Shown here piece after piece: positions 180 to 23,293 of a DNA stretch of 64,000 bases. Source of the DNA: Gammaproteobacteria bacterium (GTDB taxonomy: Bacteria > Pseudomonadota > Gammaproteobacteria > Eutrophobiales > Eutrophobiaceae); the NCBI GenBank assembly GCA_026710545.1, contig JAPOQU010000019.1, forward strand, positions 1 through 64,000, read 5' to 3'. Under the pieces are notes generated by a model. The model was given only the letters and a program-made list of their open reading frames with translations, was not told the DNA's origin and searched no databases. Positions within the stretch are counted from its first letter, which is position 1. Each line of letters opens with the position of its first letter. The translations under genes and the position numbers were made by a program.

Positions 180-1100
180 ATGCTGAAAACCATTCTAATG
201 GTAACCATCATGGCGGCCAACCTGTTCCAGGTGGAACAGGCGTACCGGGATGAGCTGGACTACAGGGTCGTTGACCGCGGCGCTGTCCCGGGTGAACTGG
301 CCGAAGCCTGGGACGCCGCCGGTATGACGGGCCGAGCATATATCACCCTGCAGCCCTCAAGCAACGAACCGGTTTACCTGCGCTTTATCGAAGAGACTTC
401 CGGGGCGCCGTTTGAACCCATGAAAACCGAGGGCTGGAACGCCGTGGAGATCCTGGTACAGGACCCCGATGCCCTGGCGCGGACCCTGGACCAATCGGAG
501 CATTTCAGCGTTGTCGGCCGGCCGCGTTACCTGACGGAACAGCAGAATATCAAGGCCATGCAGGCAATCGGCCCTGCCAACGAACTGATTTATTTCACCA
601 ATATCAGCGATCCGGAAAAGTCCGGATTCGGCCTGCACCCGGCCAGGTCGTACATCGACCGGGTTTTCATCATGGTCGTCGGCGCCCGCGACCATGACGC
701 ACTGGGCGAGTTCTACCGCACCGTCCTGGGCATGACGGTAACTGCCCCGATGCTGTACCGCATCGGTGTACTGTCCCGTGCCTACGGTATGCTGGTCGAG
801 ACCAGGCATGAACTCTCTATTGTGCAGTTGTCTGAACGTTTTTTGCTCGAACTGGACCGTTACCCGGACGCGGCAACTGCAAGGGATACCACCCCCGGCT
901 CACTGCCTCCCGGGATTGCAATGGTGACGTTTGAGGTGCGGGGCTGGGAGCCGGACCTGCCCTATATAGCCGGGCCGGGACAACAGTCTGCCTTCCCTTA
1001 CCTGGGGCGGCGCAGCGGCGTGCTTGTCGGGGCCGGCGGTGAGTACATAGAACTGGTTGAAGGCGCGACCGCGGAGCTACCAGGTGCCGGTCCGGATTAA
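180..1100 (+). CDS. VOC/glyoxalase-fold protein, probably two-domain
   Basis: This 306-residue protein belongs to the vicinal oxygen chelate superfamily by sequence character. The second half carries a typical beta-alpha-beta VOC unit, starting at a segment reading IDRVFIMVVGARDHDALGEF followed by Y-R-x-V-L-G-M. The first half looks like a diverged VOC module. VOC proteins are dioxygenases, isomerases, lyases or binding proteins, and I cannot tell which this is. There is no convincing signal peptide, although the N-terminus is hydrophobic. A GAAAGAG ribosome site precedes ATG 180. The next gene, a tandem alpha/beta hydrolase, overlaps its 3' end, so the two are probably translationally coupled. 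Confidence 0.75.
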   Translation: MLKTILMVTIMAANLFQVEQAYRDELDYRVVDRGAVPGELAEAWDAAGMTGRAYITLQPSSNEPVYLRFIEETSGAPFEPMKTEGWNAVEILVQDPDALARTLDQSEHFSVVGRPRYLTEQQNIKAMQAIGPANELIYFTNISDPEKSGFGLHPARSYIDRVFIMVVGARDHDALGEFYRTVLGMTVTAPMLYRIGVLSRAYGMLVETRHELSIVQLSERFLLELDRYPDAATARDTTPGSLPPGIAMVTFEVRGWEPDLPYIAGPGQQSAFPYLGRRSGVLVGAGGEYIELVEGATAELPGAGPD

Positions 1101-2760
1101 CAGGCGCTACGTTGATATACAGGGACGGCGGGTACATTTCCGCAGCGCCGGTACCGGGCCGGTCGTGCTGCTGCTGCACCAATCGCCCCAATCATCCGCG
1201 GCGATGATGCCCCTGGCGGAAAAACTGGTTTCCCGATATTGCGTGGTCGCGCCGGACAGTCCCGGCTTCGGCCTGTCCGACCCGCTGCCCATGGAAGAAC
1301 CGGGTATAGAGGACATTGCCGATGCGCTGGACGAGTTTACCGATGCCATACATCTCCCGCCGGCAGTGGTAATGGGGGTTCATACCGGCGCTGAGATAGC
1401 CCTTGAATTCGGCTTGCGCTACCCGGAAAAAGTAACATTCCTGCTTCTCGACGGCCTGGCATTGTTTACCGGAGAGGAAAGCGAGGAAATACTGGAGAAT
1501 TACCTGCCGCCGTTCACTCCGGACTGGGACGGGAGCCACCTCACCTGGCTGTGGGCGCGCCTGCGCGAGCAGGTGATCTTCTTTCCCTGGTACAGGAAAG
1601 ACCCGGGGTCACGTATGAACTATAACGTGCCTGACGCCGACTACATCCACAGCTGGTTCATGGACTTCATGTATGCCGGCGATAACTACCGCGGCGGGTA
1701 TGGCGCCGCATTCCGTTACTGCAACAGTTCATCAATAAAGGATGTCATTCCACCCGGCGCGGCCCTGTATCGCACCGGCGACGTGCTTGAGACACACCGG
1801 CAACGCCTCCCGGAACTGCCTGACCACGTATGGGCGGAGACCGTTCCACCCGGTCCCGGCAAACTGGATGATCGTATAATCGACCTGCTTGGCGAGTGGG
1901 TGGCCGACAATCAGCCTGATTGGCATTTTGAGCACCGTGTGTGCCGTTCAGGCGTCAAACCGGAACCGGACTACATCAGTATCGGTGAGCGGCAGATTGC
2001 CGTGACCAGAGCAGGCGATCCGTCTACGCCGTTGCTGCTGGTTTTGCATGACCTGGCCGGATCTGCGGCTGCAACCGGCGATCTTGTTTCCATTCTGGCC
2101 GAAACCCATCATGTCATCTGTCCCGACCTGCCCGGGCATGGTGAAAGCGATGTCCCGGCGGACGGCGGTTTTTCAATCAGCGCCGCGGCAGCCGGCCTGT
2201 CGGAACTTCTGAACCTGCTGGAGGCGGATCACTGCCGTATCTTGAGCCTGGGCGCGGGTTGCGTCCTGCTTCCCCCCTTGATCAGGGATAACCCGGAAAT
2301 CAATTTCCATGCCGGTATGCACAACCCATTGCTCCTGGACACAGCGTCACGGGCGGCATTGCACGATCGTTTTGCCCATCCCATTGAGCCCGATGACTAC
2401 GGAACGCATATTACGAGACTCTGGTATGCCCTGCGTGACGGGAGGTTGTTCTGGCCGTGGTATGAACCCGTTGCCGGGAATATTCGCCGTCATACTCCCA
2501 GCCTGGCAGCCGGGGACATTCACCAGTCGCTGTTTGACGCACTGAGATGCGGTAAAAGTTACCATCGGATCTGGCAGGCGTTTTTCTCAACCGATGTCGT
2601 TAAGGAAATAAAGGCATTGCCGCAACCGTTGTCGGCCACCATGAGCAACACCCATCCCTGCGCTGAAGACGCGCTTTCATTACTGGCTCAACTGCCGACA
2701 GTAACCTGCCGTGAGACCTCAGATGACTGGTCGGAAGTGATTGACGTACATTTCAGTTAA
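1084..2760 (+). CDS. Tandem (two-unit) alpha/beta hydrolase-fold protein, degenerate nucleophile elbows
   Basis: The protein has 558 residues if it starts at GTG 1084. That start has a GGAG ribosome site and matches the N-terminus of the paralogue at 6240-7880. A TTG at 1057 is also in frame. Two alpha/beta hydrolase units run in tandem, roughly 1-270 and 290-558. Each has the HxxP/HDLAG oxyanion-loop region and a PD(S/L)PGxGxSD strand-loop. At the nucleophile elbow, where G-x-S-x-G is expected, unit 1 reads G98-V-H100-T-G102 and unit 2 reads S388-L-G390-A-G392, so neither has the usual serine. Each unit has a cap motif P-D-x-x-G-(S/T)-H followed by an F-x-P-W-Y run (PWY at 168-170 and 458-460). 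The reaction is unknown. The protein could be a non-serine lyase or oxygenase-like enzyme, or a binding protein. Confidence 0.85.
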   Translation: MPVRINRRYVDIQGRRVHFRSAGTGPVVLLLHQSPQSSAAMMPLAEKLVSRYCVVAPDSPGFGLSDPLPMEEPGIEDIADALDEFTDAIHLPPAVVMGVHTGAEIALEFGLRYPEKVTFLLLDGLALFTGEESEEILENYLPPFTPDWDGSHLTWLWARLREQVIFFPWYRKDPGSRMNYNVPDADYIHSWFMDFMYAGDNYRGGYGAAFRYCNSSSIKDVIPPGAALYRTGDVLETHRQRLPELPDHVWAETVPPGPGKLDDRIIDLLGEWVADNQPDWHFEHRVCRSGVKPEPDYISIGERQIAVTRAGDPSTPLLLVLHDLAGSAAATGDLVSILAETHHVICPDLPGHGESDVPADGGFSISAAAAGLSELLNLLEADHCRILSLGAGCVLLPPLIRDNPEINFHAGMHNPLLLDTASRAALHDRFAHPIEPDDYGTHITRLWYALRDGRLFWPWYEPVAGNIRRHTPSLAAGDIHQSLFDALRCGKSYHRIWQAFFSTDVVKEIKALPQPLSATMSNTHPCAEDALSLLAQLPTVTCRETSDDWSEVIDVHFS

Positions 2761-2776
2761 GGAGACCGAATGTTGG

Positions 2777-2800
2777 GGGGACGGATTTAAATCCGTCCCC
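2777..2800. repeat. REP-like palindrome, GGGGAC family, copy 1
   Basis: A perfect 24-bp palindrome with outer GGGG/CCCC, an ACGGATTT arm and its complement. It lies between the stop codon of the tandem hydrolase and the convergent YciI-like gene. It belongs to a set of near-identical palindromes in this window, at 5323, 6211, 10551 and 50892. It could also act as a bidirectional transcript end. Confidence 0.85.
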
Positions 2801-2836
2801 AAACCGGTTACGCAGAAGCGCTAATCGCCCGGATTG

Positions 2837-3139
2837 TCACCAGATTCTGCCGCCGACCCAGCTACCTGCCACGCCTTTAAACTCATGTATGTCAACTTCC
2901 TGCCAGACACCGGCCAGGTAATAGGGATCGGTATCCACCATTGCGGTCGCTTCGTCAAGGCTGTCCACCTCGACTACCATCAGGCTGGCCACGGCAGAGT
3001 TTCCGTCCGGGCCCATTACAGGACCCCCAACCATTATTTTTTCTTCTACAGCTTCAATGTGCTTAAGATGATCCGCCAGGTTGCTTTCCCTGGGTTCAGC
3101 GCTGCCCTCGGCGTCTTTACAATATATTGATACCAGCAC
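2837..3139 (-). CDS. YciI-like protein
   Basis: This 100-residue protein has the small ferredoxin-like fold of the YciI/YCII family. Visible features are an N-terminal beta strand followed by R-x-x-N-L-A-D-H-L (the family's conserved His region), G-G-P-V-x-x-x-D-G-N, and V-D-S-L-D-E-A. I place the start at GTG 3139, where GGAGAAATATC supplies a ribosome site, because the open frame upstream has no family similarity. YciI proteins are small, often stand-alone domains linked to degradation of aromatic or halogenated compounds, and their activity is mostly unproven. The gene is divergent from the Tat-cupin gene at 3255. Confidence 0.75.
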   Translation of the reverse strand: MLVSIYCKDAEGSAEPRESNLADHLKHIEAVEEKIMVGGPVMGPDGNSAVASLMVVEVDSLDEATAMVDTDPYYLAGVWQEVDIHEFKGVAGSWVGGRIW

Positions 3140-3254
3140 GATATTTCTCCGGTGAGTTGAATGACGATTTATTACTTTATCACGATAAAACAACATTGCA
3201 CCATTGCGGGTAGTAAGTGTATTCTCCAACCAGTTTAACCAGGACACAGGATAG

Positions 3255-4253
3255 ATGAAGACACTCAGCAGAAGACAATTCCTCAGGCACGGGACGGTAA
3301 CGGCGGGTGCTTTGACCGTACCGTCATTTTTCATACCGGTTGCAAAGGCAACGGAAGAGCCCCACCGGATCATGACGACAGCCAATGCACCGTTCACATC
3401 CATTAAAGTGCTCGACACCGCGGCGATGCCCTGGTCGCCGCCCATCAATGAACTGGGCTGGAAAGCCAAGACGCTGTTCAGCAACCAGGACACGGGAGAC
3501 CACCTGGTGATCATCTGGGTGCCCATCGGCGCACCGGGCGGGCGCAACCATTACCACACCTTCCATGAGTGGGCCTATTGGCTCACGGGCGATTTCGTCA
3601 ACAATGAATACACCAGCCCCCTGCAGCGCATCGGCGACTTCCAGCAGTTCCGGGAAGGCGTATTCCTGGACCGCCCGGCCTACAGCCTGCACGGCGGCGA
3701 ACCGGGGCGGCTGGATTCCCAGGTTGGCGGCACCTGCCTGATCATGGAGGAAGGCGGTGAAACCATTTACGTGACCCCGGATGACAAGAATTATGACGAC
3801 GCCTGGAAACAGGTCAAACAATGGACTGTCCCCAGGATCATCGACACCATCAGCGAGCTTCCCTGGGAACCTTACGACGCGGCAGAAGGAATCGGCATCA
3901 AACGCCTGGCCGACGACCAGGTGCGCGGGTTCCGCGCGGTGATGTGGCTGCTGCCCGCCGGATGGAAAGCACCGGGCAACGGGCAATTCGGCAGGGCGCA
4001 TTACTATAAACAGGCCCACCAGTTCAACTACATCCTCAACGGCGACCTGCAACTGCAAAGCTGGTCATCACCGGAGGAGAAGGCGGAACAAATCAGGCTG
4101 ACAAAAGACTTTTACTTTGAAAAAGCGCCCATGGCCATCTCCGGCCTGGCAGACGGCACGGTCAGCGAAACCGGTTGCGTCTGGCTGCAGGTGACCTATG
4201 CCAGGGGTACGTCGATACCCAACATTCCCATCGAGGATGCGGTGTATATTTGA
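3255..4253 (+). CDS. Tat-exported bicupin protein
   Basis: The protein has 332 residues. It begins with a twin-arginine signal (S-R-R-Q-F-L at 5-10, then a hydrophobic stretch ending near A30-K-A), so it should be exported folded to the periplasm. The mature part has two cupin-like halves. The first carries a metal-binding cluster H99-Y-H101-x-x-H104-E105-W-A-Y followed by L-x-G-D-F. The second contains a Y-Y-K-Q-A-H-Q-F-N-Y-I-x-x-G-D-L segment. It is clearly homologous to the Sec-type protein at 24494-25489 (shared HYHxxHEWAYxLxGDF and FLDRPAYSLHGG-like motifs). The enzymatic function is unknown. A dioxygenase, isomerase or metal-binding role is possible. Confidence 0.8.
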   Translation: MKTLSRRQFLRHGTVTAGALTVPSFFIPVAKATEEPHRIMTTANAPFTSIKVLDTAAMPWSPPINELGWKAKTLFSNQDTGDHLVIIWVPIGAPGGRNHYHTFHEWAYWLTGDFVNNEYTSPLQRIGDFQQFREGVFLDRPAYSLHGGEPGRLDSQVGGTCLIMEEGGETIYVTPDDKNYDDAWKQVKQWTVPRIIDTISELPWEPYDAAEGIGIKRLADDQVRGFRAVMWLLPAGWKAPGNGQFGRAHYYKQAHQFNYILNGDLQLQSWSSPEEKAEQIRLTKDFYFEKAPMAISGLADGTVSETGCVWLQVTYARGTSIPNIPIEDAVYI

Positions 4254-4318
4254 CGCTCCCTCTAACCGGCGGGCGTCCGGGACAAGTATTTCCACCTAAT
4301 ACAAGTCAAATATGCATT

Positions 4319-5299
4319 TCAGTCATGCGAATGATGGTGATGCTTGTGCGTATGCCAGTGGCTGTGCTTGTGGCCGTCGGTTTCCGGTTCGTTGTCCGGA
4401 AATTCCGGGCCGCGTAATTTCTGCGTCTGCTCGAAGTCTTCCGGGCCGTGCGGGTGGTTGTGGGAATGGCTGACCATCCACTTGTATAACAGCGGGTCGC
4501 GCTGGTAGACGCGGGCCGCGGCGCGGGTCTGGTTCTCCTGCGGCGTCGACCAGGGGTTGTAGTGAAAGTAATTGAACAGCTTCGAGTCCACCCTGCCCAG
4601 GGCGATACAGCCGAACTCCGAGGCAAACGCGCCGTGGTTGATATATGCCGGGCGCCAGAAATAGCCGCCCGTGGGAATGTCGCCGAACTGCATCATCCAC
4701 GAGGTGCCCCACAGGTGGTAGGACTCTTCCGCGCAGTCATGGTAGGAAATGTTGTCCTGGTAGAACGCCGGCGTCATGCAGTAGATGAACGTCATGGCGT
4801 GTGAAATCGGGTTGTAGTTGAGCAGCTTGATCATCACGCCGGATGCGACCGCGGGTTTGACGATGTTGCCCGGGACCCAGGTTATGTCCAGGTAGGAATC
4901 GACGTCGTGGTACAGGTTCGTATGGGCAAGATGATGATGTTCGGTAGCTTCGACCAGGCTGGGCTCGCCCGTGTTATACATCATCAGCACGATTGCGCCC
5001 TGTTCCGATTTGATCGCGGGCATGGCATAGCCCGCCGGCACGAAGAAATAATGACCCTTGCGCACCGTCCTGTCATCCAGTTGCAGTTCTCCCTCGACCA
5101 CCATTATTTCCCATTCCGACCAGGAAAATCCGGGCGGCTGGCTGTAACCGCCATCCAGTTGTACCGTCATGGTGCAGGCGCCGGTATCGCCATCCATGCT
5201 CAGCATCTTGTAGTGCATGTCCCGGCCGAAACCCGGCAGCAGCATTCTCTTGAACGTAACGTCCCGGTCGACAAAGGGTTCTATGTGTGGGCGCGCCAT
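4319..5299 (-). CDS. Cytoplasmic bicupin with histidine-rich C-terminal tail
   Basis: This 326-residue protein has no signal peptide. The first cupin half contains W-S-E-W-E-I-M-V-V-E-G-E-L followed by G-H-Y-F-F-V-P-A-G. The second half has D-C-A-E-E-S-Y-H-L-W-G-T and R-P-A-Y-I-N-H-G, both typical cupin beta-barrel segments. The last 20 or so residues are dominated by His (about 10), which suggests a metal-storage or metal-delivery tail. The gene is the last of a minus-strand run: FAD oxidase, tandem hydrolase, DUF3598-like protein, small protein, this gene. That context suggests a catabolic enzyme rather than a regulator. The substrate is unknown. Confidence 0.8.
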   Translation of the reverse strand: MARPHIEPFVDRDVTFKRMLLPGFGRDMHYKMLSMDGDTGACTMTVQLDGGYSQPPGFSWSEWEIMVVEGELQLDDRTVRKGHYFFVPAGYAMPAIKSEQGAIVLMMYNTGEPSLVEATEHHHLAHTNLYHDVDSYLDITWVPGNIVKPAVASGVMIKLLNYNPISHAMTFIYCMTPAFYQDNISYHDCAEESYHLWGTSWMMQFGDIPTGGYFWRPAYINHGAFASEFGCIALGRVDSKLFNYFHYNPWSTPQENQTRAAARVYQRDPLLYKWMVSHSHNHPHGPEDFEQTQKLRGPEFPDNEPETDGHKHSHWHTHKHHHHSHD

Positions 5300-5322
5300 G
5301 TCGTTTCTCCTGTGTTTGCCAA

Positions 5323-5347
5323 GGGGACAGAATTGAATTCTGTCCCC
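5323..5347. repeat. REP-like palindrome, GGGGAC family, copy 2
   Basis: A 25-bp palindrome: GGGGACAGAATT, central G, then the exact complement. It lies in the gap between the small-protein gene (5357) and the downstream cupin gene (5299) of the minus-strand run. A hairpin here could give differential expression of the two genes. Confidence 0.85.
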
Positions 5348-5356
5348 GGAAATTTG

Positions 5357-5647
5357 TTACTCACCATCAACGCCGTACTTCCAGACCACCCGGTCTTCCC
5401 TTCCCTCCGGTTTGACCGGCAGGTCCTCGCGTTTAATCTTTACCTTCTGGTCGCCATCGGCGTTAAAACCGCGCAGGGAAATCCGGTCAAAGAATTCCTC
5501 GTACCATTTTGCCCGCGCCGGCGCCAGGTCGCTCATCTGCCTGTCGATTTTTGCGAAGCGCTGCTCCTGCTCGGCGAGTTCTTCCCGTATCCATTCTTCT
5601 TCCTCTTTGCTGCGTTCGTGGTCTATGAACAGGTTTTTGAAAGTCAT
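5357..5647 (-). CDS. Small charged protein of unknown function
   Basis: This 96-residue protein has no recognised domain. Residues 10-50 are rich in Glu, Arg and Lys with a probable helical pattern (E-E-E-E-W-I-R-E-E-L-A-E-Q-E-Q-R). The C-terminus is basic and ends with Val-Trp-Lys-Tyr-Gly-Val-Asp-Gly-Glu. ATG 5647 has an AGAGAG ribosome site. The gene lies between the DUF3598-like gene and the His-tailed cupin on the same strand, so it is probably part of that operon. Confidence 0.65.
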   Translation of the reverse strand: MTFKNLFIDHERSKEEEEWIREELAEQEQRFAKIDRQMSDLAPARAKWYEEFFDRISLRGFNADGDQKVKIKREDLPVKPEGREDRVVWKYGVDGE

Positions 5648-5683
5648 TGCTTTATTCTCTCTGAAGTTTCCCGCGTATTGTAA

Positions 5684-6187
5684 TCAAAAAACGGCAACGT
5701 CGGCATAGTCCGCCTCTTTGTTGTCGTAGGCCCGCCAGTCCGCGCTGACGCGCTGCTCATCAACCAGGGTGCGCTGGAACAACCGCCCCTGGCGGAACCA
5801 CTGCCATACCCTGGCCCTGTATCGGCCGCAATCACTGATCTGTATCATCTCATAGAGATACAGGTCCGGCTCATTATTCCGGGTCCAGTGCAGCATGATG
5901 GTCCTGTTGTTTTCATCCAGCGGCACCGCCGCCGCCCAGCCGGTGATTTCCGTATAAAACACCAGACGGTCCTCCTTGACGATAGCCGGAAAATCCCGGG
6001 TATCTTTTTTGCCGTCCGCCCAGAAATAATAATTGGTCTGGTGGTAGTCGTTATCACCGGCCAGGCGGCAAAGCAACCTGGATTTATGTTCATCAATCCT
6101 GTTGCCGGAAATATCCAAGTAACGGTAATAGCCGTCCCATACGCCTTCGTGACGCGCCAGTAGCGGCATCTTTTCTCTAAGTGACAT
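5684..6187 (-). CDS. DUF3598/lipocalin-like small protein
   Basis: The protein has about 167 residues from ATG 6187; a TTG one codon upstream is also possible. The opening P-L-L-A-R-H-E-G-V-W-D-G-Y-Y-R-Y and the later N-N-E-P-D-L-Y-L-Y-E-M-I-Q-I-S-D are, from memory, characteristic of DUF3598-like calycin-fold proteins, which make small ligand-binding beta barrels. There is no signal peptide. It sits directly downstream of the tandem hydrolase gene, with a REP-like palindrome in the gap. A role in binding or converting the pathway's hydrophobic intermediate is an inference. Confidence 0.65.
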   Translation of the reverse strand: MSLREKMPLLARHEGVWDGYYRYLDISGNRIDEHKSRLLCRLAGDNDYHQTNYYFWADGKKDTRDFPAIVKEDRLVFYTEITGWAAAVPLDENNRTIMLHWTRNNEPDLYLYEMIQISDCGRYRARVWQWFRQGRLFQRTLVDEQRVSADWRAYDNKEADYADVAVF

Positions 6188-6210
6188 CAAATTCCTCCTC
6201 TTCGCTCGCC

Positions 6211-6234
6211 GGGGACAGAATTAATTCTGTCCCC
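6211..6234. repeat. REP-like palindrome, GGGGAC family, copy 3
   Basis: A perfect 24-bp palindrome, GGGGACAGAATT plus its complement, extendable by CC/GG to 28 bp. It lies between the tandem-hydrolase stop (6240) and the DUF3598-like start (6187) on the minus strand. Confidence 0.85.
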
Positions 6235-6239
6235 GGATG

Positions 6240-7880
6240 TCAGACAGCAACATTGAAATCCCGGCCCGGAAGGCTGCGCCGGCAGACCTCCGCCAGCGGG
6301 TCCGTTTCCGTGATGCACAGATCCACAGCACAGTTCAGTGTATCCAGGCGCGCTGCCAAAGGATAGTTTATTACCTCTTGCCGGAGTTCGTTTGCAGCAG
6401 GTTGCGCCTGCCAGAACTCCGTAACGCACGCGCTGAGGTATTCCGCATCCAGGTTGGGTCGTCCGGGCAGGGCATGGCCGGCATCCCTCGCATACCAGGG
6501 CCAGAACATCTGCCGGTCCCGTAACCAGTGCCAGGTCTTCAGCAGGTGTGAGCCTTCGGCATCCGGCCTGAAATCAGGGAAAAACCTTTCGTGTTCCCAT
6601 GCTCCGGCGAGCGCGCCGTAAGCAACCGGATTGACCAGTTTCAATGCCTGCACGGAGCGCCCCAACCGTGTCGCCAGCTCAACGGCAACGGCCGCGCTGT
6701 CTTTTTCGGCCAGGATCCCGAACCTGTTCCAGCCCAGGGAAGCAACCAGTTCAGCCAGCGCTTCCACTGACCCGTCAATTCCTTGCCGGCCCTGTTCGGG
6801 CCGGTATGACAGCCCGTGTCCCGGCAGGTCGGGGGCAATAACATGGTATTGTCCGGACAGGGACTCGACCCGTGCGGACAGGGAACGCCCGGAACTGCCG
6901 ATATCGTGCAACACCAGCATGGGAGGCAGTTGCCCGTCGCCTGCCGATAAGTAATGGCGCTGCCCCCCGTCCAGGTCGAGAAAGCCTTTTCCTGTGCTGC
7001 CCGTCCTGACTGCACGCCTGATTTGGCAATCCCCGCCGCGCGCCGGCGCCAGCCGTTCAGTGAATATGCTCCTGAATGCCTCGATGCGCTGTCCGCGGGT
7101 GGGGCCTTTATGCAGCATGGTGAAATTATCCGGCCACTCCACCGAGTCGAAGCGGTCGGTATAAGGCTTCAGGATACTGCCCTGCCAGCGCATGATGATG
7201 ACCGGAACCGTAATGGGCTGCAGCCGCTCCATCTTTTCGTTGGCAAACGCGGCCCGGTAGGCCCGGTCATAGTCCTTTCCCGCCTGCAGGAACTCCATGG
7301 CCATCTGGTGTACTACTGCGGTATTGACGCCGCCTGCCGGCAGGCGGGTTTGGGGAGTTGTCCGGTGCCATGGAAAAAACATGCATTGGTCCCGGGCCAC
7401 CGACCAGGTCCTGGTCAAATGGCTGCCGGTCGCATCCGGGGTCAAATCGGGGAAATACCCGGATACGATGCCGTCCCTTTCTTCATCGGTAAAATGAGCG
7501 GCATTGTCCAGGATGAGGTATTCCACCCTGGCGCCGTAGGTCTTGCTGAACTCTATGGCAATTTGCGCGCCCGTTGCCGTCCCGTACAGGCCGAAACTTT
7601 CCAGGCCCAGACGCCTGGTAAACGAATACAGTGCAGCTACGTATCCCGCCAGATCTTCGGCCGGTTCCGCCAGGGGGTCGGACCAGCCGTAACCCGGCGT
7701 GTCGGGCGCGATAACCGTGTTGAATTCCGCTGCGACCCTGATGAACGGCAGCAGGGCGGCGGAGGACATGGGTGAAGCATGCAACATGACCAGGGCCGGC
7801 CCCGTCCCGGCGCTGCGGAAATGGACGAGTCGCGGACGCTCTTCGCCGCCGACGTTGACGTAATCCTGTTTGACCTGCAT
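6240..7880 (-). CDS. Tandem (two-unit) alpha/beta hydrolase-fold protein, degenerate nucleophile elbows (paralogue)
   Basis: This 546-residue protein is collinear with the protein at 1084-2760 (both share V-H-F-R-S-A-G-T-G-P near the N-terminus). It has two alpha/beta hydrolase units. The nucleophile elbow reads G100-T-A102-T-G104 in unit 1 and A391-E-K393-D-S395 in unit 2, so neither offers a serine at the central position. The cap motif P-D-x-x-G-S-H-L plus F-x-P-W-(H/Y) is present in both units (PWH 170-172, PWY 461-463). The gene starts four bases after the FAD oxidase stop, so the two are translationally coupled. Function is unknown, as for the paralogue. Confidence 0.85.
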   Translation of the reverse strand: MQVKQDYVNVGGEERPRLVHFRSAGTGPALVMLHASPMSSAALLPFIRVAAEFNTVIAPDTPGYGWSDPLAEPAEDLAGYVAALYSFTRRLGLESFGLYGTATGAQIAIEFSKTYGARVEYLILDNAAHFTDEERDGIVSGYFPDLTPDATGSHLTRTWSVARDQCMFFPWHRTTPQTRLPAGGVNTAVVHQMAMEFLQAGKDYDRAYRAAFANEKMERLQPITVPVIIMRWQGSILKPYTDRFDSVEWPDNFTMLHKGPTRGQRIEAFRSIFTERLAPARGGDCQIRRAVRTGSTGKGFLDLDGGQRHYLSAGDGQLPPMLVLHDIGSSGRSLSARVESLSGQYHVIAPDLPGHGLSYRPEQGRQGIDGSVEALAELVASLGWNRFGILAEKDSAAVAVELATRLGRSVQALKLVNPVAYGALAGAWEHERFFPDFRPDAEGSHLLKTWHWLRDRQMFWPWYARDAGHALPGRPNLDAEYLSACVTEFWQAQPAANELRQEVINYPLAARLDTLNCAVDLCITETDPLAEVCRRSLPGRDFNVAV

Positions 7881-7883
7881 GGA

Positions 7884-9488
7884 TTACAAGCCCAACGCGC
7901 CCGGATTGATGCGGTTATCCGGGTCCAGAATGCTCTTGAGTTGCCGTACCAGTTCCCAGCTTGGTGATTTCAACCCTTCCTTGTACAGGTAGGCCTTGCC
8001 AACCTGCAAATGCGCCGCGCCCATATCACGGAAAAACGCCAGCAACTCCTGCCTGATGAGAGCCACTGCCCGGCGCGCTTCCGGGTTTTCATCGAAACCG
8101 GGAAGTTTTTTCAGCACGCCCGGTTCCACCGTATCCCGGTGAATTTCCGTCATGGCGTCCGGCCAGAAGAAGACCGGCTCGACCACGAAGCAATTTGTCG
8201 ATACCGTGGCAAACAGAAACCCCGCGCCGATGCCCTCGCGTTCCATAAGTTCCCGCTGGCCGGAAAAAATTTTTTCCGCACCATTGATGACGGCAATGGC
8301 CCTGGAATGGGGGATCAGCGCGTGTACCGGCGCCCAGCGCTCTCCCTGTGGCCCGACGACATTATTGAGTGGGGCAAACGGATTGGCCCTGAGTATTTTC
8401 GGAATACTGTTTTCAATCTCACGGCCCTGGAGACTCGAGCAAATCTGTCTGATTCGATCCATCCGGTCGTCCGCCAGGGTTTCGGAAGCTTCTTCTACCA
8501 CGATATGCAGTGAATACGCCACGTCCTCCATGAAACCCCTTCCGGCGACCGCAGTTTTGACCCCCTCCGTGACCGCTGCGACGACCCCGTTGCTCGCTTT
8601 CATCACGCCGGCCAGCGCTTTTACGTCCCGCAGAAGGCTGTCACGCTGCATACGCTGCTTCTGCAAAAAGGGATCGAAGCCGAAACACTCCATGGCAAGA
8701 CCCTCCCTGGCAATTGCGCTCATGGCGCTGGTCATGGGGCCGTAATGATCGAAATCAAAAGAGGCAAAACGCCTGGCAGCCAACTCCGGGACCAGTTGCA
8801 GGGTGGCCTTGGTCTTGATGCCCAGGGCGCCGGCGTCACAGCAAAACAGGCCGGTCAGGTCGGGGCCATAGTGCCTGAAGAAGGGAGCGCCGTGCTTCTG
8901 GGCATTCGACCCGGTGTCCAGTATCGTTCCGTCAGCCAGCGCCACTTCCAGGCTCAGCACGGAGTCCGCCGCGCTGCCGTAACGTCCGGAACCCCAGAAT
9001 ATGCTGTTCTGGGACAGGCTGCCGCCGACAGTGGCCTTGATACCGGACAGCGTCCCCCAGTACGGCGTGCGGCAGCCGGTCCCGCGCAATGCTGCATGCA
9101 AGTCCTTCCAGGTGCATGCGGCTTCCATGGTCACATACATGTCTTCGGTATTACACTCCACTACCCGGTTAAGTCTTCCCATATCGATCAGGATGGTATC
9201 CGCTTCCGCCGGCACATAGCCGCCGGTGTATGACATGCCGCCGCCGCGTGTTACGACCGCATGGCCGCGTTGCGTCGCAGCCGCTGCAACCCGGGCCACG
9301 TCTGCCGTCGATCCGGGACGGACCACTGCCAGCGCGGGCAGGGCCCTGGTATAAATATCCTGGGAATAATATGAACAATTCCGTTCATCGGTCAGGACGT
9401 AATCAGCGCCGGCTATTGCAGCCATGGCTTCAATCACTGTAGAGTTGTTTGCTGCCGTGTTTTCCAAGGGACAAATAACGCTGATCAA
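7884..9488 (-). CDS. FAD-binding oxidase/dehydrogenase (GlcD/PCMH-like)
   Basis: The protein has 534 residues. An N-terminal FAD-binding type 4 domain (about 30-250) shows the V-T-R-G-G-G-M-S-Y-T-G-G pyrophosphate loop, G-G-S-L-S-Q-N-S, and G-A-L-G-I-K-T-K-A-T. An FAD-linked oxidase C-terminal domain ends in D-P-D-N-R-I-N-P-G-A-L-G. It oxidises an alcohol, hydroxy acid or phenol-type substrate. It is paralogous to the protein at 25619-27208, sharing R-T-P-Y-W-G/P-P-Y-W-G and E-P-V-F-F-W-P-D. It is the first gene of the minus-strand operon running to 4319. A TTATAACATT motif lies just upstream. A start at residue 22 (Met) is also possible. Confidence 0.85.
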   Translation of the reverse strand: MISVICPLENTAANNSTVIEAMAAIAGADYVLTDERNCSYYSQDIYTRALPALAVVRPGSTADVARVAAAATQRGHAVVTRGGGMSYTGGYVPAEADTILIDMGRLNRVVECNTEDMYVTMEAACTWKDLHAALRGTGCRTPYWGTLSGIKATVGGSLSQNSIFWGSGRYGSAADSVLSLEVALADGTILDTGSNAQKHGAPFFRHYGPDLTGLFCCDAGALGIKTKATLQLVPELAARRFASFDFDHYGPMTSAMSAIAREGLAMECFGFDPFLQKQRMQRDSLLRDVKALAGVMKASNGVVAAVTEGVKTAVAGRGFMEDVAYSLHIVVEEASETLADDRMDRIRQICSSLQGREIENSIPKILRANPFAPLNNVVGPQGERWAPVHALIPHSRAIAVINGAEKIFSGQRELMEREGIGAGFLFATVSTNCFVVEPVFFWPDAMTEIHRDTVEPGVLKKLPGFDENPEARRAVALIRQELLAFFRDMGAAHLQVGKAYLYKEGLKSPSWELVRQLKSILDPDNRINPGALGL

Positions 9489-9500
9489 GTTGTATTGTAC

Positions 9501-9510
9501 TTATAACATT
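9501..9510. promoter_or_regulatory. TTATAACATT motif, candidate operator 1
   Basis: This 10-mer lies in the 73-bp divergent gap between the FAD oxidase (minus) and the CurA-like reductase (plus). The same 10-mer is at 14463 upstream of a TonB receptor. It also occurs at 25561, inside a perfect 14-bp palindrome upstream of the second FAD oxidase. A local regulator binding site is inferred. AT-rich promoter sequence is the alternative. Confidence 0.35.
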
Positions 9511-9561
9511 ATATCATTGTAGAATAAACTCTGACCCGAAAACACCGGAGCAGGCGTTATC

Positions 9562-10578
9562 GTGAATAATACACGAGTTTTATTGAAACGAAGAACCGGA
9601 GGTATTCCCCAAGAACAGGATTTCGAACTGGTCGATGCCGCAACGGACAGGCCGGCCGCGGGTGAATTGCTGTGTGAAACCCTGTACCTGTCACTGGACC
9701 CGTACCTGCGCGGAAGGATCAGCGGGCGGCATATCTCCGGCGCCATCAACGTGGGCGACCTCATGGGCGGAGAAGCTGTCAACAGGGTTATCGAGTCGAA
9801 GTCGGACCGGTTCAGACAGGGTGACATTATCGCCGCCCACAGCGGCTGGCAAAGCCATCCCGTTGTCAGGGCAGACGCAGCGCGACAGGTAAACCCGGAA
9901 CTCGGACCACTATCCACCCTGCTGGGTATCCTCGGCATGCCCGGCCTGACTGCCTACGCCGGAATGACCCGCCTCGCCGGATTGAAAGCGGACGACACGG
10001 TTGTCGTCTCGGCCGCATCCGGGCCGGTCGGGTCGATGGTCGGCCAGATTGCCAGACGCAAGGGTTGCCGCATCGTCGGCATTGCCGGTTCCGCGGAAAA
10101 ATGCCGCTGGACGGTCGAACAGGCAGGCTTCGATCGCGGCATCAATTACAAAACGGAAACGCTCAGGGACAGCCTCAAGCGCGCCTGCCCCGACGGTATT
10201 GATGTTTATTTCGATAATGTGGGCGGCGACACCCTGCAGGCGTGCATGGAACAACTGGCCTTCGGCGCCCGGGTCATCCTGTGCGGACTGATCGCGCAAT
10301 ACAACACGAATGAAATGCCCCCCGGACCCAACCCGGCCTTCATCATCAAAGCCAGGGCCACCGTGCGCGGCCTGGTCGTCTATGACCACGAAGACCTGCG
10401 CCCGGAGTTCGAGCAGCAGGTAAGCCGGTGGCTGAAGCAGGGAGAGATCTGCTACAGGGAAGACTGCGTGGAAGGTCTTGAACATGCTCCCGCTTTGTTC
10501 TGTCGCCTGATGCGGGGGGAAAACTTCGGCAAGGCCATCGTTAACGTACAGGGGACAGACTTTAAGTCTGTCCCCTGA
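9562..10578 (+). CDS. NADPH-dependent MDR-family reductase (CurA/leukotriene B4 dehydrogenase-like)
   Basis: This 338-residue, zinc-free medium-chain reductase opens with N-N-T-R-V-L-L-K-R-R. It has the family's L-D-P-Y-L-R-G-R motif and a nucleotide-binding segment V-S-A-A-S-G-P-V-G-S-M-V-G-Q. Y-F-D-N-V-G-G is typical of the CurA/PTGR group. These enzymes reduce the double bond of alpha,beta-unsaturated ketones or aldehydes with NADPH. The start is GTG 9562 with GGAG upstream. The last eight or so codons (G-T-D-F-K-S-V-P) are encoded by a REP-like palindrome at 10551, so the natural C-terminus has been replaced or extended. A VOC gene follows 57 bp downstream. Confidence 0.85.
   Translation: MNNTRVLLKRRTGGIPQEQDFELVDAATDRPAAGELLCETLYLSLDPYLRGRISGRHISGAINVGDLMGGEAVNRVIESKSDRFRQGDIIAAHSGWQSHPVVRADAARQVNPELGPLSTLLGILGMPGLTAYAGMTRLAGLKADDTVVVSAASGPVGSMVGQIARRKGCRIVGIAGSAEKCRWTVEQAGFDRGINYKTETLRDSLKRACPDGIDVYFDNVGGDTLQACMEQLAFGARVILCGLIAQYNTNEMPPGPNPAFIIKARATVRGLVVYDHEDLRPEFEQQVSRWLKQGEICYREDCVEGLEHAPALFCRLMRGENFGKAIVNVQGTDFKSVP
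10551..10575. repeat. REP-like palindrome, GGGGAC family, copy 4, inside a CDS
   Basis: A 25-bp palindrome, GGGGACAGACTT, central T, and complement. It overlaps the last codons and abuts the TGA stop of the CurA-like reductase. It is the only copy of this family in the window that is translated. Confidence 0.9.
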
Positions 10579-10635
10579 ACTTACACAGCAATGCACGCAA
10601 GAGTGCATGATTACATCGTATGAGAGGCAATTCCT

Positions 10636-11115
10636 ATGAACAAAATTCCCACCGATTTTCGCCGCGCCACCATGCTGGTGAACGAGATCGAAACACCTCT
10701 GAAAATCTATCGCGACATCCTGGGCATGGAAACTTACTACGACAAGGAACTGGTCGTGTCCGGCGTCGGCGTGCCGGCCGGCGAAGCGGGTGGAAAGGTG
10801 CGCCTGGTCATTCTCAAGGCAAACGATCCCTATATCGGCATGCTCGGCATATTGCAATACCTTGACCCGCCGTTACCCGAACGGGGCGATTATCCGAAAA
10901 GGCTGGGTGTAGGCGACACCGTGTTCGTGATGAGCGTGGAGGATGCCGAAAAAGTGCACCGCGAGTTGCTCGCCGTTCCCGGGGTGCACATACAGAGCGA
11001 ACCTCACGTTACCGAGTACCCCAAGCCGGACGGCGGCGTGTTCAGACTGCTTTGCATGAGCTTCTTTGACCCGAACGGTTATTTTATCGAAGCCAACCAG
11101 TGGCTGAGCCGGTGA
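10636..11115 (+). CDS. VOC/glyoxalase-family protein
   Basis: A single VOC domain of 159 residues. An early strand is followed by P-L-K-I-Y-R-D-I-L-G-M-E, and the C-terminal strand F-F-D-P-N-G-Y-F-I-E-A-N contains the usual metal-binding Glu. ATG 10636 is preceded by GAGAGG. The likely role is a lyase, isomerase, dioxygenase or sequestration protein acting on a pathway intermediate. The stop codon overlaps the next start as GTGA, indicating translational coupling with the small secreted protein. Confidence 0.8.
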   Translation: MNKIPTDFRRATMLVNEIETPLKIYRDILGMETYYDKELVVSGVGVPAGEAGGKVRLVILKANDPYIGMLGILQYLDPPLPERGDYPKRLGVGDTVFVMSVEDAEKVHRELLAVPGVHIQSEPHVTEYPKPDGGVFRLLCMSFFDPNGYFIEANQWLSR

Positions 11116-11528
11116 ACAGGTCTGATTTTTTATCGTTCGTCCTGGCGCCGGCGCTGTTTATTGCACCCGCATGCGGCACAGCGTCCGAGCTTGAGACAGC
11201 AACATACTACAAAGGCTGGATGGCCGTGAAAAAACATAAGGTCGAACCTGGCGCCGACCTGTCGGAGTGGATTTTCACCAGAATAGAGCGCATGCATAAC
11301 CAGGGGCAGAAAATACCCTTGCTGGACGAATCCGGCAAAAAAACCGGCTATACCCTGTCACTGGAGAGCCTGACCTACCAGGAAACCCAGGTGCCGGTGC
11401 TGAAAATCGGAGTAATCGATGACAGGACCGGCTACACTCTCTCTTATTCCTGGACCGAACCGGGGTCGCTTCGAGTGGGGCTGAACGTGCGCTGGTTCCA
11501 GGCCGGGCTGACCCGTATCGATGAATAA
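11112..11528 (+). CDS. Small secreted protein of unknown function
   Basis: The protein has 138 residues from GTG 11112, chosen because it forms a GTGA overlap with the preceding stop and places a hydrophobic signal peptide at the N-terminus. Cleavage is probably after the A-C-G-T-A-S region. The mature part is mixed alpha/beta with no motif I recognise. It contains a Lys/Gly-rich stretch K-I-P-L-L-D-E-S-G-K-K-T-G-Y and ends R-I-D-E. The MFS gene starts within its last codons. Co-translation with a VOC enzyme and a transporter suggests a periplasmic accessory in the same pathway. Confidence 0.6.
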   Translation: MNRSDFLSFVLAPALFIAPACGTASELETATYYKGWMAVKKHKVEPGADLSEWIFTRIERMHNQGQKIPLLDESGKKTGYTLSLESLTYQETQVPVLKIGVIDDRTGYTLSYSWTEPGSLRVGLNVRWFQAGLTRIDE

Positions 11529-12867
11529 TTCCGCAACACCAGGACAAGGCGCCGATACCGGCTACCCCGGCGCCCGCTATGCCTGGTACATGGTGACACT
11601 GCTGACCGTCGCCTACGTCTGTTCCTTCATAGACCGGTTCATGCTGGGACTGCTGGTGGAACCGATCAAGGCGGATCTCGGCTTCTCGGATACCCAACTC
11701 GGCCTGTTGCTGGGTCCCGCGTTTGCCATTTTCTACGCCACCATGGGGCTGCCCCTGGGCTGGATGGCGGACCGCTACCGGCGCGGCTGGATTGTCGCCG
11801 CGGGCATCGCGGTCTGGTCTGCCGCGACCGTCGCTTCCGGCCTGGTAAAGAACTTCTTCCAGATGTTCATCGCCCGTATGAGCGTGGGCATCGGCGAGGC
11901 CACCCTCAGCCCGTGCGCCATCTCCATGATCTCGGACAGCTTTCCCAGGGAACGCCGGGCCAAGCCCATCGCCTTCTACAGCATGGCCGTATCCATCGGC
12001 GCGGCCATCGCCTCACTGTTCAGCGCCACGGTTCTGATCTGGGCCAAATCCTCACCCGAAACCAGCCTGCCGTTGGTCGGAACTGTTGCCCCCTGGCAGT
12101 TTGCATTTATCGCCGTGGGAATGCCCGGATTCATCCTGGCGCTGATGTTTTTCGCGCTGCGGGAGCCGCGGCGCCAGGAACGGGGCATGACCGGAGGACT
12201 TGGCAACGCCTCATTGATCGACACCCTGAAATTTATCCTGCAAAGGTGGAAAGCGTTCGCCAGTTTCCTGACCATCTTCTGCCTGATGACCACCATCGCC
12301 TACAGCCAGGGCTGGGGCGCCGCCCTGTTCATGCGCACCTGGGGCTGGGAAGCGTCAAGGTTCGCCCTGGTGAACGGTATCGTGCTGCTGGCCGTAGGAC
12401 CGGCGACGGTGAACCTGTCCGGCTGGCTGTGCGACCGCTGGTATGCCCGGGGAGTGGCTGACGCCGCCTTGCGCATTGCCGTCATCGGCGCGTTCATCAT
12501 GGTCATCACCGGAATCATCGCCCCGCTGATGCCGACCGGTAATTCGGCCATGCTGATGTTCGGCGTGAACGCGGTGGGACTTGCCATGGTTACTGCAACC
12601 GGCGTAACGGCCCTGCTTAACATGACTCCGGGCGAGATCCGCGCCCAGGTCGTCGCATTCTATTACATGGCCATCAGCCTGGCAGGGTTGCTGCTGGGTC
12701 CGACCACCATAGGGATCCTCAACGACCAGGTCTTCGGCGAACAGGGCGTTAAATATTCAATGGCGCTGCTGCCGTTTGTTTACGGCCTGCCGGTGTTGCT
12801 GCTGGTTCCCGTCACCCTGCGGCTCTACGCCGGCGCCTGCGCCGATATGCTGCGCGCAGAGGACTGA
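11521..12867 (+). CDS. MFS transporter (spinster/aromatic-acid-type)
   Basis: A 448-residue inner-membrane carrier with about 12 hydrophobic segments. The MFS signature region G-L-P-L-G-W-M-A-D-R-Y-R-R lies between helices 2 and 3. R-M-S-V-G-I-G-E-A-T-L-S-P follows in helix 4, a pattern common in the Spns-like group. The gene overlaps the upstream secreted-protein gene by eight bases. It probably imports or exports the pathway's substrate or product. Substrate cannot be read from sequence. Confidence 0.85.
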   Translation: MNNSATPGQGADTGYPGARYAWYMVTLLTVAYVCSFIDRFMLGLLVEPIKADLGFSDTQLGLLLGPAFAIFYATMGLPLGWMADRYRRGWIVAAGIAVWSAATVASGLVKNFFQMFIARMSVGIGEATLSPCAISMISDSFPRERRAKPIAFYSMAVSIGAAIASLFSATVLIWAKSSPETSLPLVGTVAPWQFAFIAVGMPGFILALMFFALREPRRQERGMTGGLGNASLIDTLKFILQRWKAFASFLTIFCLMTTIAYSQGWGAALFMRTWGWEASRFALVNGIVLLAVGPATVNLSGWLCDRWYARGVADAALRIAVIGAFIMVITGIIAPLMPTGNSAMLMFGVNAVGLAMVTATGVTALLNMTPGEIRAQVVAFYYMAISLAGLLLGPTTIGILNDQVFGEQGVKYSMALLPFVYGLPVLLLVPVTLRLYAGACADMLRAED

Positions 12868-12971
12868 ACGGTTGTCAGCGGTTCCCGCTAACCTCGGCGG
12901 GACGGGTGGGGTAAAAACCTGTGACGATTACCAGTTGACTGAGCCGAATAGACGATCAAGGGTAAATCGAT

Positions 12972-14393
12972 ATGCAACTCCGACAGACTTCAACAAACCT
13001 CACGCGCCGGAACCTGCTGCAGGCGGGCAGCGTTGTGGCGCTGTCCCTGCTGTACCGGCCGGTTTTCGCCGCACGTAAACATTTCGACGTCATTATTGTC
13101 GGCGCCGGCCTTGCCGGGTTGCAGGCAGGGCGCATATTACAACGGCGCGGCGTGGATTTTTTGCTGCTGGAAGGGTCGCCGCGCGTCGGCGGACGGGTGT
13201 ATACGCTGGATGACCTGCCCGGACGGCCCGAAGCCGGCGGCGCCCAGGTCGGCGCGAATTACCGCGCGCTTAACCAGGCGCTGGCGGAGCTGAACATCAC
13301 AACGAAGAATATCAGGCCCGGCGCGCCCGGCATGGCCCTGCTGGTGAACGGTCATCTCAGCGCGCTCGAAAACTGGTCCGCCAGCCCGGGCAACCTGTTG
13401 CCGGAAAGCCTGAAAGATGCCCCGCCTTACGGGTTGTTGCCGAAGCTGCTGCGCAACGGCAGCTTCCTGTCCGGCCCACTGGACTGGTGGAAACCTGAAT
13501 TTGCGGCGCTGGATATCCCGTTACGGTCGTACCTGAAACAAATAGGGGCTGATGCAGAGGCCATAAGGCTGATCGATGCCAACCTGAACGGCGAGAGCAT
13601 CGACACCCTGTCTGCCCTGGACCTGCTGCGCAAGCTCGCGGTGTTGCAGGGCGCCGGCGCGCCGCAGGACGTCGGCGGCGGCATGCAACGCTTGCCCGCT
13701 GCCATGCATGCTTCAATCAAGCCGTACGTGATGACGGGCAAGCAGGTCACCGGAATTAACACGGCAAACGCAGGGGTCCGGCTGCTTACCGCCGATTCCG
13801 ACAGCTATACCTGCCGATTGTGTCTTGTTGCCCTCCCGTTCACCGTGCTGCGGCGGCTGGACGTGCGGGCGCCGGTATCCCGGCCCAAGCGACAGGCCAT
13901 CAGGCGCATGGGATATACCCCGGTGACCCATGTGTTCATGAAACCCCGCAGCCCGTTCTGGCTTGCCGACGGCCTGAGTCCGAACTTATGGACCGACACC
14001 GAGCTCGGCAGGGTCTTCACACAAACCGATGAACAGGGCGAAGTGATACGGTTACGCGCCTGGATACAGGGTTCGACTGCCCGGCGGCTTGAGAGCCTGC
14101 CGGACAGGGAACTCGGCGCCCGCGTCGTGTCGCTGCTGGAACGGGCAAGGCCGGCAGCGAAATCGCAACTCGAGGTGGAACGGGTCATATCCTGGGGGAA
14201 AAATCCTTTCGCCCGCGGCGCGTTTTCCCACTATCCGGCGGGCGGGGTCGGTCAATTCAGCCGCTCCGTAAGCAGTCCGGAGGGCTTGTTGCACTTCATC
14301 GGCGCTCATACCGAGCCTTCCGCTTCCGGCATGGAAGCGGCTGTCAAATCCGGCGTGAGGGGCGCGCATGAGGTCATTAATCGCCTGTCCTGA
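12972..14393 (+). CDS. Tat-exported flavin amine oxidase family protein
   Basis: The protein has 473 residues. An N-terminal T-R-R-N-L-L-Q-A-G twin-arginine signal and hydrophobic stretch (to about residue 35) precede the FAD-binding V-I-I-V-G-A-G-L-A-G-L-Q-A-G motif, L-E-G-S, and R-V-G-G-R-V. The C-terminal F-I-G-A-H-T-E-P-S-A-S-G-M-E-A-A is the second FAD contact of the MAO/amine oxidase family. It probably oxidises an amine or a related C-N or C-C bond in the periplasm. Phytoene-desaturase-like chemistry is less likely. It follows the MFS gene by 104 bp on the same strand. Confidence 0.85.
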   Translation: MQLRQTSTNLTRRNLLQAGSVVALSLLYRPVFAARKHFDVIIVGAGLAGLQAGRILQRRGVDFLLLEGSPRVGGRVYTLDDLPGRPEAGGAQVGANYRALNQALAELNITTKNIRPGAPGMALLVNGHLSALENWSASPGNLLPESLKDAPPYGLLPKLLRNGSFLSGPLDWWKPEFAALDIPLRSYLKQIGADAEAIRLIDANLNGESIDTLSALDLLRKLAVLQGAGAPQDVGGGMQRLPAAMHASIKPYVMTGKQVTGINTANAGVRLLTADSDSYTCRLCLVALPFTVLRRLDVRAPVSRPKRQAIRRMGYTPVTHVFMKPRSPFWLADGLSPNLWTDTELGRVFTQTDEQGEVIRLRAWIQGSTARRLESLPDRELGARVVSLLERARPAAKSQLEVERVISWGKNPFARGAFSHYPAGGVGQFSRSVSSPEGLLHFIGAHTEPSASGMEAAVKSGVRGAHEVINRLS

Positions 14394-14462
14394 TGCATGA
14401 TTCAGCGTATGTTGCAAAATAACGTTGACTTTGACTGAAGTATAGTCTTAAATGATATAAAG

Positions 14463-14472
14463 TTATAACATT
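14463..14472. promoter_or_regulatory. TTATAACATT motif, candidate operator 2
   Basis: The same 10-mer as at 9501 and 25561. It lies in the 142-bp gap upstream of the TonB-dependent receptor, within an AT-rich stretch that could hold the promoter. Confidence 0.35.
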
Positions 14473-14535
14473 CTTACATGTTGTAGTTATGGGTGAACAT
14501 TCTCATATTCCTTGACCGGGAAGGGGGCAGCCATC

Positions 14536-17070: not shown

Positions 17071-17114
17071 ACAAGCCTTGGTATATTCCCCCCACGCATA
17101 CCGGGCTTACTCCG

Positions 17115-17141
17115 TTGCCGGTGTTCATCGAACACCGGCAA
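17115..17141. terminator. Strong hairpin after the TonB receptor
   Basis: A perfect 12-bp stem (TTGCCGGTGTTC and complement) with a 3-base loop, 45 bp after the receptor stop. No T-run follows, so it is either a transcript-stabilising hairpin or a weak or Rho-assisted terminator. Confidence 0.5.
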
Positions 17142-17214
17142 TCATTGATAGCTATGAACAAGGGTTTTACCGGTGCCTGAAACCCGAAATTCATTCACAC
17201 GGAACTTCTGAAAA

Positions 17215-18090: not shown

Positions 18091-18108
18091 CCCGGATTTA
18101 CCCCATAG

Positions 18109-18146
18109 ATATTTGGGGTCAGAGTAAATGCTCTGACCCCAAATAT
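18109..18146. repeat. REP-like palindrome, TTTGGGGTCAGAG family, copy 1
   Basis: Two 16-base arms (ATATTTGGGGTCAGAG and complement) separated by a 6-base loop. It lies between the DUF1838 gene and the Bcr-type MFS gene. A close relative is at 29871. Confidence 0.9.
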
Positions 18147-18174
18147 CCTTTTACCCTGACTCCAATTTTCCGTC

Positions 18175-21704: not shown

Positions 21705-21901
21705 GACGGACCTCCTTTACAAGCTTACTGATTATTTATAGATGGTTGGTTGTTATATCAACATATCATTTCTTTGTTGTGTTGTAAATCTTTTGTTGCT
21801 AACTTGAACAAGCTGTCGTAAGTTAACAACATCCTGGGGGAGCGCCATGAAACCTCACGCCATGTTGCCGGCGCGACTGCTTCACGGGCAGGCCTGTGCC
21901 A

Positions 21902-21925
21902 CTACTCCGCTTTCGCAGGTACGAC
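21902..21925. repeat. Degenerate GCTTTCGCAGG REP-like sequence forming a gene's 3' end
   Basis: On the minus strand the last codons of the MFS gene (P-V-V-P-A-K-A-E) come from a sequence resembling the widespread GCTTTCGC-type REP elements. A related perfect hairpin lies at 23234-23251 on the other side of the same gene. Confidence 0.4.
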
Positions 21926-23158: not shown

Positions 23159-23233
23159 GTTGAGGGTCCTCTCGCAGATACGGGTTTTTTTGTTCTGATT
23201 AATAGGGAATACCGTATTTGACCGGATTCCCGC

Positions 23234-23251
23234 TCCCTGCTTTCGCAGGGA
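23234..23251. repeat. Small GCTTTCGC-type hairpin
   Basis: TCCCTGC, TTTC loop, GCAGGGA: a 7-bp perfect stem between the monooxygenase stop and the MFS start. It shares CTTTCGCAGG with the 3' end of the MFS gene. Confidence 0.5.
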
Positions 23252-23293
23252 CAAGCTGCGCGGGGACGAACTGCCATGAGTGATTTCCCGGGT

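Follow-up and report, generated by a model that had tools for sequence, protein, structure and literature searches.

The alpha/beta-hydrolase fold ranks with the largest of all enzyme folds. The catalytic His of its members usually lies in the loop after beta8 (PMC7034887). As described in the sections of PMC10548524 that treat them, the cofactor-free dioxygenases HOD, QDO and AqdC use a His-Asp dyad as a general base and the nucleophile is dispensable; HOD has H251-D126 as its dyad and retains S101 in the elbow. The methylketone synthase MKS1, treated in the same sections, has no canonical triad and relies on a His as its base (PMC10548524).

We analyzed a gammaproteobacterial window (the whole stretch of DNA studied here, 64,000 nucleotides) that encodes two proteins of this fold, P1 and P2.

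1084-2760, plus strand: P1, a two-unit alpha/beta-hydrolase-fold protein of 558 amino acids (open reading frame, Pfam and AlphaFold), with an N-unit at about residues 1-280 and a C-unit at about residues 290-558
6240-7880, minus strand: P2, a two-unit paralogue of P1, 546 amino acids (open reading frame, Pfam and AlphaFold)

A first-pass annotation had described both proteins as pairs of hydrolase units, and this description held. Pfam matched Abhydrolase_1 twice in each protein, and the PF00561 scores (70.6 and 48.8 bits against a curated cut-off of 25.8) agree with membership of the alpha/beta-hydrolase fold. AlphaFold models based on family alignments contained two complete alpha/beta-hydrolase units for both P1 (pLDDT 94.1, pTM 0.92) and P2 (pLDDT 90.9, pTM 0.92). 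The further statement that the units are tandem duplicates is not proven: the N- and C-units have a common fold and cap motif, but the C-units sit on long branches outside the N-unit clade in a 91-row tree. By structural comparison, the N-unit of P1 matched esterases, chloroperoxidases and fluoroacetate dehalogenases with Z scores of 24-27 (Z 27 over 253 residues). No solved chain covering both units was among the PDB matches listed by Foldseek and VIA-align; the elbow residues of solved structures were checked in the printed alignments only. Neither P1 and P2 nor three single-unit relatives scored above the cut-off of any NCBIfam model.

A scan of named genomes returned 297 relatives, from which the best 80 were kept. 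Nearly all of these best 80 are two-unit proteins of 525-580 amino acids, and they come from marine and sponge-associated Gammaproteobacteria, Stenotrophomonas, Lysobacter, Steroidobacteraceae, Alteromonas, Aliiglaciecola, Comamonadaceae and Alphaproteobacteria. In an even sample of 397 genomes across the phylum, a strong two-unit match was present in 3, the window's own included. Plasmid records contained two-unit proteins from Novosphingobium, Sphingobium, Sphingomonas and Azospirillum and single-unit relatives from Variovorax, Antarctobacter, Shinella, Rhodococcus and Streptomyces. Within the genus of the window there are separate P1 and P2 orthologues, at 69-79% identity.

Next, we examined the nucleophile elbows. 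When re-read, they were GVHTG and SLGAG in P1 and GTATG and AEKDS in P2, with Ser, Cys and Asp absent from the elbow positions, as the earlier claim that no unit has G-x-S-x-G requires. Two residues of the P1 N-unit are central to what follows:

1381-1383, plus strand: His100, in the nucleophile elbow (GVHTG) of the P1 N-unit, placed by alignment and AlphaFold model
1780-1782, plus strand: Asp233 of P1, at the canonical catalytic-acid place after beta7 (the loop after strand 225-230 in the model)

In the P1 model H100 sits where strand 94-99 turns into helix 101-112, and in the P2 model A102 sits where strand 96-101 turns into helix 103-114, so these are true elbows. All 84 full-length P1-type proteins carry His at the nucleophile position (G-x-H-[T/S]-G) and keep D233, the beta7 catalytic acid. 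H32, T101, Y140, W157, R159, Q163, W169 and Y206 are equally invariant (84/84), H152 is present in 81/84, and the beta6 place is N in 46 and D in 38. The loop after beta8 in P1 is PPGPG, which has no His; this loop lacks His in 59 of the 84 P1-type proteins, and in the other 25 His occurs at no common place. P1 therefore has neither the elbow nucleophile nor the beta8 His by which a serine, cysteine or aspartate hydrolase is recognized. The first-pass annotation had named two observations that would speak against it: an elbow with conserved Ser or Cys, and a characterised serine hydrolase bearing the same motif. Alignment of the relatives (84 P1-type and 6 P2-type) revealed no conserved Ser or Cys in the elbow, and no such hydrolase was found in PDB searches, NCBIfam or the literature searched.

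A strictly conserved His in place of Ser, together with a conserved Asp, implies a changed active site in P1 and not decay. The “loss of nucleophile” originally proposed is thus wrong for the P1 N-unit, and it better describes the degenerate C-units and P2, in which His and Asp are gone together. The elbow His-Thr and the Asp persist without the flanking glycines in Sphingomonas JE1 and Sphingobium TomTYG65 (ATHTS), and the elbow His and the Asp persist in a reversed unit order in Azospirillum (dead N-unit, GTHTG C-unit). The best-scoring Ser-type relatives found with the same profile (L119-L141) carry GxSxG, the Asp and a beta8-loop His, for example GISMG...DSRHATP; one further match of that search, L142, reads GHGLG. 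Because these nearest Ser-type relatives have a beta8 His and P1-type proteins have no conserved one, the His has in effect been relocated to the elbow while the Asp stayed in place. We rejected the idea that a beta8 His is always absent from the His-elbow clade, as three single-unit sequences combine an elbow His with a beta8-loop His: L042 5485-6378 (WGHGF), L082 19030-20082 (WGHGF) and L072 16756-17598 (GGTHD). The relocation is therefore strict for the two-unit family and not for the whole clade. The elbow of L022 is GRATG.

In the 91-row tree, all His-elbow units, single-unit proteins included, formed one clade with support of 100/98, which excluded the Ser-type relatives sampled and all C-units save the reversed Azospirillum one. 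The normal two-unit N-units formed one group within it (100/97), and the P2 N-unit fell inside that group, so the Ala elbow of P2 is a secondary loss.

The annotation had also noted a cap signature common to the units. The cap motifs of P1 and the C-unit elbows are as follows.

1531-1593, plus strand: cap motif of the P1 N-unit, GSHL..W.R.R.Q....FFPWY, residues 150-170
2401-2463, plus strand: cap motif of the P1 C-unit, GTH..W...R......PWY, residues 440-460
2245-2259, plus strand: elbow of the P1 C-unit, SLGAG, degenerate and variable in relatives
6696-6710, minus strand: elbow of the P2 C-unit, AEKDS, degenerate (genus orthologues)

The common signature was borne out: across 55 diverse proteins, G150, W157, Q163, P168 and W169 of the N-unit cap and G440, R451, P458 and W459 of the C-unit cap are invariant. 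At the C-unit elbow, just 1 of 90 relatives has Ser where the nucleophile would lie. Within the genus, GVHTG and GTATG are invariant; both C-unit elbows vary, and Ser is never at the nucleophile position. That a cap motif is kept in an otherwise dead unit suggests that the C-unit cap serves packing or pocket completion in a covalent pseudo-dimer.

In P2, the residues that distinguish P1 have changed as a set.

7569-7583, minus strand: elbow of the P2 N-unit, GTATG, with Ala102 replacing His (Ala in 6/6 P2-type proteins)
7176-7178, minus strand: Ser235 of P2, at the place of the beta7 Asp (Ser in 6/6 P2-type proteins)

H100 to A, D233 to S and R159 to V change together in 6/6 P2-type proteins (one with M for V), and P2 retains H34, H154, the two-unit architecture and the cap motif. 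Among the loci covered, the P2-type Ala elbow occurs in this genus and in a single near relative, L024, and nowhere else. P2-type proteins also have an invariant His ending beta8 (6/6; motif NFTMLHxGPTR, about residue 258, window about 7107-7109, minus strand), which is not conserved in P1-type proteins; instead of lacking a site, P2 may possess a distinct one. For the N-unit, dN/dS was 0.13-0.25 in P2 versus 0.10-0.15 in P1, and in both proteins the C-units were faster in amino acid change than the N-units. Whole-gene dN/dS of 0.10-0.31 led us to reject decayed pseudogenes, and the substitution ratios indicate that P2 is under purifying selection despite loss of the His-Asp pair. We propose a two-unit GxHTG family, defined by a length of about 530-580 amino acids, the cap motif in both units, GxH[TS]G together with the beta7 Asp in one unit and degeneracy of the other. 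P1 has all of these features, and P2 has the architecture and the cap and has lost the His and Asp.

To place the two proteins in a setting, we examined their neighbors.

180-1100, plus strand: VOC-like protein upstream of P1, whose start overlaps its end; without a Pfam match
5684-6190, minus strand: DUF3598-type protein, downstream of P2 and also found in Stenotrophomonas clusters
7884-9488, minus strand: FAD-binding oxidase/dehydrogenase (PF01565; GlcD/D-2-hydroxyacid dehydrogenase/VAO type), 3 nucleotides upstream of P2
9562-10578, plus strand: CurA-like NADPH enone reductase, which adjoins the two-unit gene in Stenotrophomonas/Lysobacter
12972-18090, plus strand: flavin amine-oxidase-like protein, TonB receptor and DUF1838 protein, common to the Stenotrophomonas cluster (compared with L044)

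The protein at 180-1100, which on the earlier reading we take to be VOC-like, is followed by P1 in an order common to L015-L017 and L023-L025. The FAD oxidase resembles the GlcD/D-lactate dehydrogenase and vanillyl-alcohol oxidase group, and in 26/80 loci an FAD oxidase is the same-strand neighbor of the two-unit gene. P1 and P2 lie on opposite strands and so cannot form a single transcript, and a single operon of the two was rejected. The proposed cotranscription with VOC and FAD oxidase genes accordingly applies to one partner each, P1 with the VOC-like gene and P2 with the oxidase, and not to both. Window positions 5684-18090 have in common with Stenotrophomonas clusters the DUF3598 protein, the two-unit protein, the FAD oxidase and the CurA-like reductase, along with the amine-oxidase-like flavoprotein, the TonB receptor and DUF1838. 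Elsewhere, two-unit genes neighbor LeuCD-like hydratases, an ICL-type or HMG-CoA lyase and a CoA transferase or CoA ligase, and single-unit relatives neighbor a CoA ligase and an amidohydrolase. Such surroundings are those of carbon-source catabolism, and the cluster in the window, which Stenotrophomonas has in part, is a catabolic/uptake one.

Several further observations concern this region and its counterparts. The DUF1838 protein (17215-18090; PF08894, E 1e-78) is a recurrent neighbor of two-unit genes, at 11 loci. The plasmids pJE1 and pTomTYG65b (L103 and L105, from Sphingomonas and a tomato-associated Sphingobium) carry near-identical catabolic islands with two-unit (ATHTS) and single-unit (GSHTG) members and LeuCD, CaiB and HMG-CoA lyase genes. 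In the literature searched, which most subscription journals lie outside, we found no description of DUF1838 function or of the pJE1 cluster. Compared with positions 12080-18326 of the near relative L024, window positions 3600-9000 are a mosaic of DNA identity: about 0.91-0.94 over DUF4437 (4319-5299) and over parts of both the P2 N-unit and the FAD oxidase, 0.72-0.76 in the P2 C-unit and 0.64-0.80 in P1. This pattern suggests recombination or transfer of cluster parts, or very uneven constraint. The window contains two DUF4437/ChrR-type cupins (4319-5299 and 24494-25489), and the former has 97-98% protein identity to several near relatives versus near 79% for its neighbors. Two more FAD_binding_4 oxidases (25619-27208 and 32136-33710), together with a second TonB receptor, an MFS transporter and an FAD monooxygenase at 19458-24472, are probably further catabolic modules.

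Our preferred explanation, which we hold with about even confidence, is that P1 is a nucleophile-free enzyme using the elbow His and the Asp as a general base and that P2 is a paralogue without this dyad. H100 would pair with D233 as the base, neither a nucleophile nor a covalent acyl intermediate would take part, and the step could be, for example, C-C cleavage, decarboxylation, isomerization or addition of O2 or water. The substrate would be a polar intermediate of catabolism that the neighboring FAD 2-hydroxyacid-type oxidase produces or consumes. The C-unit, catalytically dead and with its cap motif kept, would complete the covalent pseudo-dimer; P2 would be a derived paralogue under continued selection, probably as a partner that binds, regulates or scaffolds, or else through a third site of its own. 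These data are compatible with the non-hydrolytic role or pseudo-dimer first suggested, although the nucleophile-loss premise behind that suggestion fails for the P1 N-unit. Retention of a beta8 His in some single-unit members counts against this explanation of P1.

The strictly conserved His and Asp could instead bind a metal or a ligand. A noncatalytic ligand-binding or sensor protein, NDRG-like or receptor-type, whose His/Asp and cap bind a pathway intermediate, would account for the lack of a nucleophile in every unit, for the conservation of P2 despite loss of the whole dyad and for a partial match of P1 to Pfam Ndr above cut-off (27.9 versus 23.3). We consider it somewhat unlikely: that match is limited to the profile part common to all such hydrolases (positions 48-129 of 283), and a general-base pair co-conserved in 84/84 proteins from very diverged bacteria, with a polar/aromatic set, is more usual for catalysis. 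For a divalent metal site formed by H100 and D233 with H152 or H32, the invariance of H32 and the presence of H152 in 81/84, alongside H100 and D233, are suggestive, and P2 keeps H34 and H154 without the other two. However, ordinary Ser-type proteins of this fold commonly have an HG-type His at the H32 position, and no metal-dependent member of the fold was met in this analysis, so we regard metal binding as quite improbable.

H100 might also be the nucleophile itself, through an acyl- or alkyl-imidazole intermediate, in which case the protein would still be a hydrolase or transferase. It lies exactly at the Ser/Cys/Asp attack position, T101, the next residue, is conserved at an oxyanion-hole position, and the beta8 His of some single-unit members could act as a base. 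The two-unit family, however, has no second conserved His in the beta8 loop to activate H100; we know of no His nucleophile on this fold, and none was found in the literature searched. This makes a His nucleophile improbable in our view. That the proteins are an ordinary serine hydrolase with a misread elbow, or a decayed pseudogene pair, might be argued from the generic hydrolase names, the only ones that Pfam and NCBIfam give. We think this highly improbable, as the elbow is fixed by the model, the His is present in 84/84 and the open reading frames are intact and under purifying selection; the misread elbow in particular was rejected on the AlphaFold model and the 84/84 His.

Taken together, an invariant Ser-to-His replacement, later lost in the paralogue P2, is a more precise and stronger statement than loss of a nucleophile. 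Replacement of Ser by the elbow His probably marks a different kind of chemistry, in an apparently unstudied branch of the fold. Annotation pipelines label these proteins “alpha/beta hydrolase,” though a serine mechanism is impossible for them. A clade in which the nucleophile is swapped for His and the Asp is kept would add a route from hydrolysis to other chemistry beside those of HOD and MKS1. Loss of the same pair in P2 and the natural reversed-order variants make the dyad hypothesis directly testable, and the conserved cluster suggests that soil, sponge-associated and marine bacteria have a catabolic pathway still to be characterised.

Among known systems, NDRG and other dead members of the fold resemble P1 and P2 in lacking a Ser nucleophile, and P1 has the partial Ndr match; to our knowledge, such members have no two-unit chain and no GxHTG/Asp pair. 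NDRG membership of P1 was rejected, as the match does not cover the full-length Ndr profile. In fold and N-unit sequence, P1 is like the fluoroacetate dehalogenase/epoxide hydrolase/C-C hydrolase branch (RPA1163, CorEH, BphD), with best N-unit profile matches to 7ac0 (E 2e-18) and FAcD (about 3e-17). That branch has an Asp after beta7 at the acid place, as P1 does. It differs in having an Asp or Ser elbow with a beta8 His, whereas P1 has a His elbow without a conserved beta8 His, and two units per chain are a feature of P1 and P2 alone in this comparison. Searches of the journals covered yielded no account of GxHTG, GHHTG or GxHxG alpha/beta hydrolases, and within the searches made P1 is a known fold with an apparently undescribed active-site variant. 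MKS1 is a plant protein with a retained His and a neighboring Thr, which the relevant sections of PMC10548524 do not place at the elbow. The H251-D126 arrangement of HOD is absent from P1-type proteins, which have no conserved His after beta8; relative to HOD as those sections describe it, the sole conserved candidate His of P1 is at the elbow and its Asp is after beta7. With this difference in placement, the mechanism of HOD, QDO and AqdC, as outlined there, is possibly analogous to that of P1.
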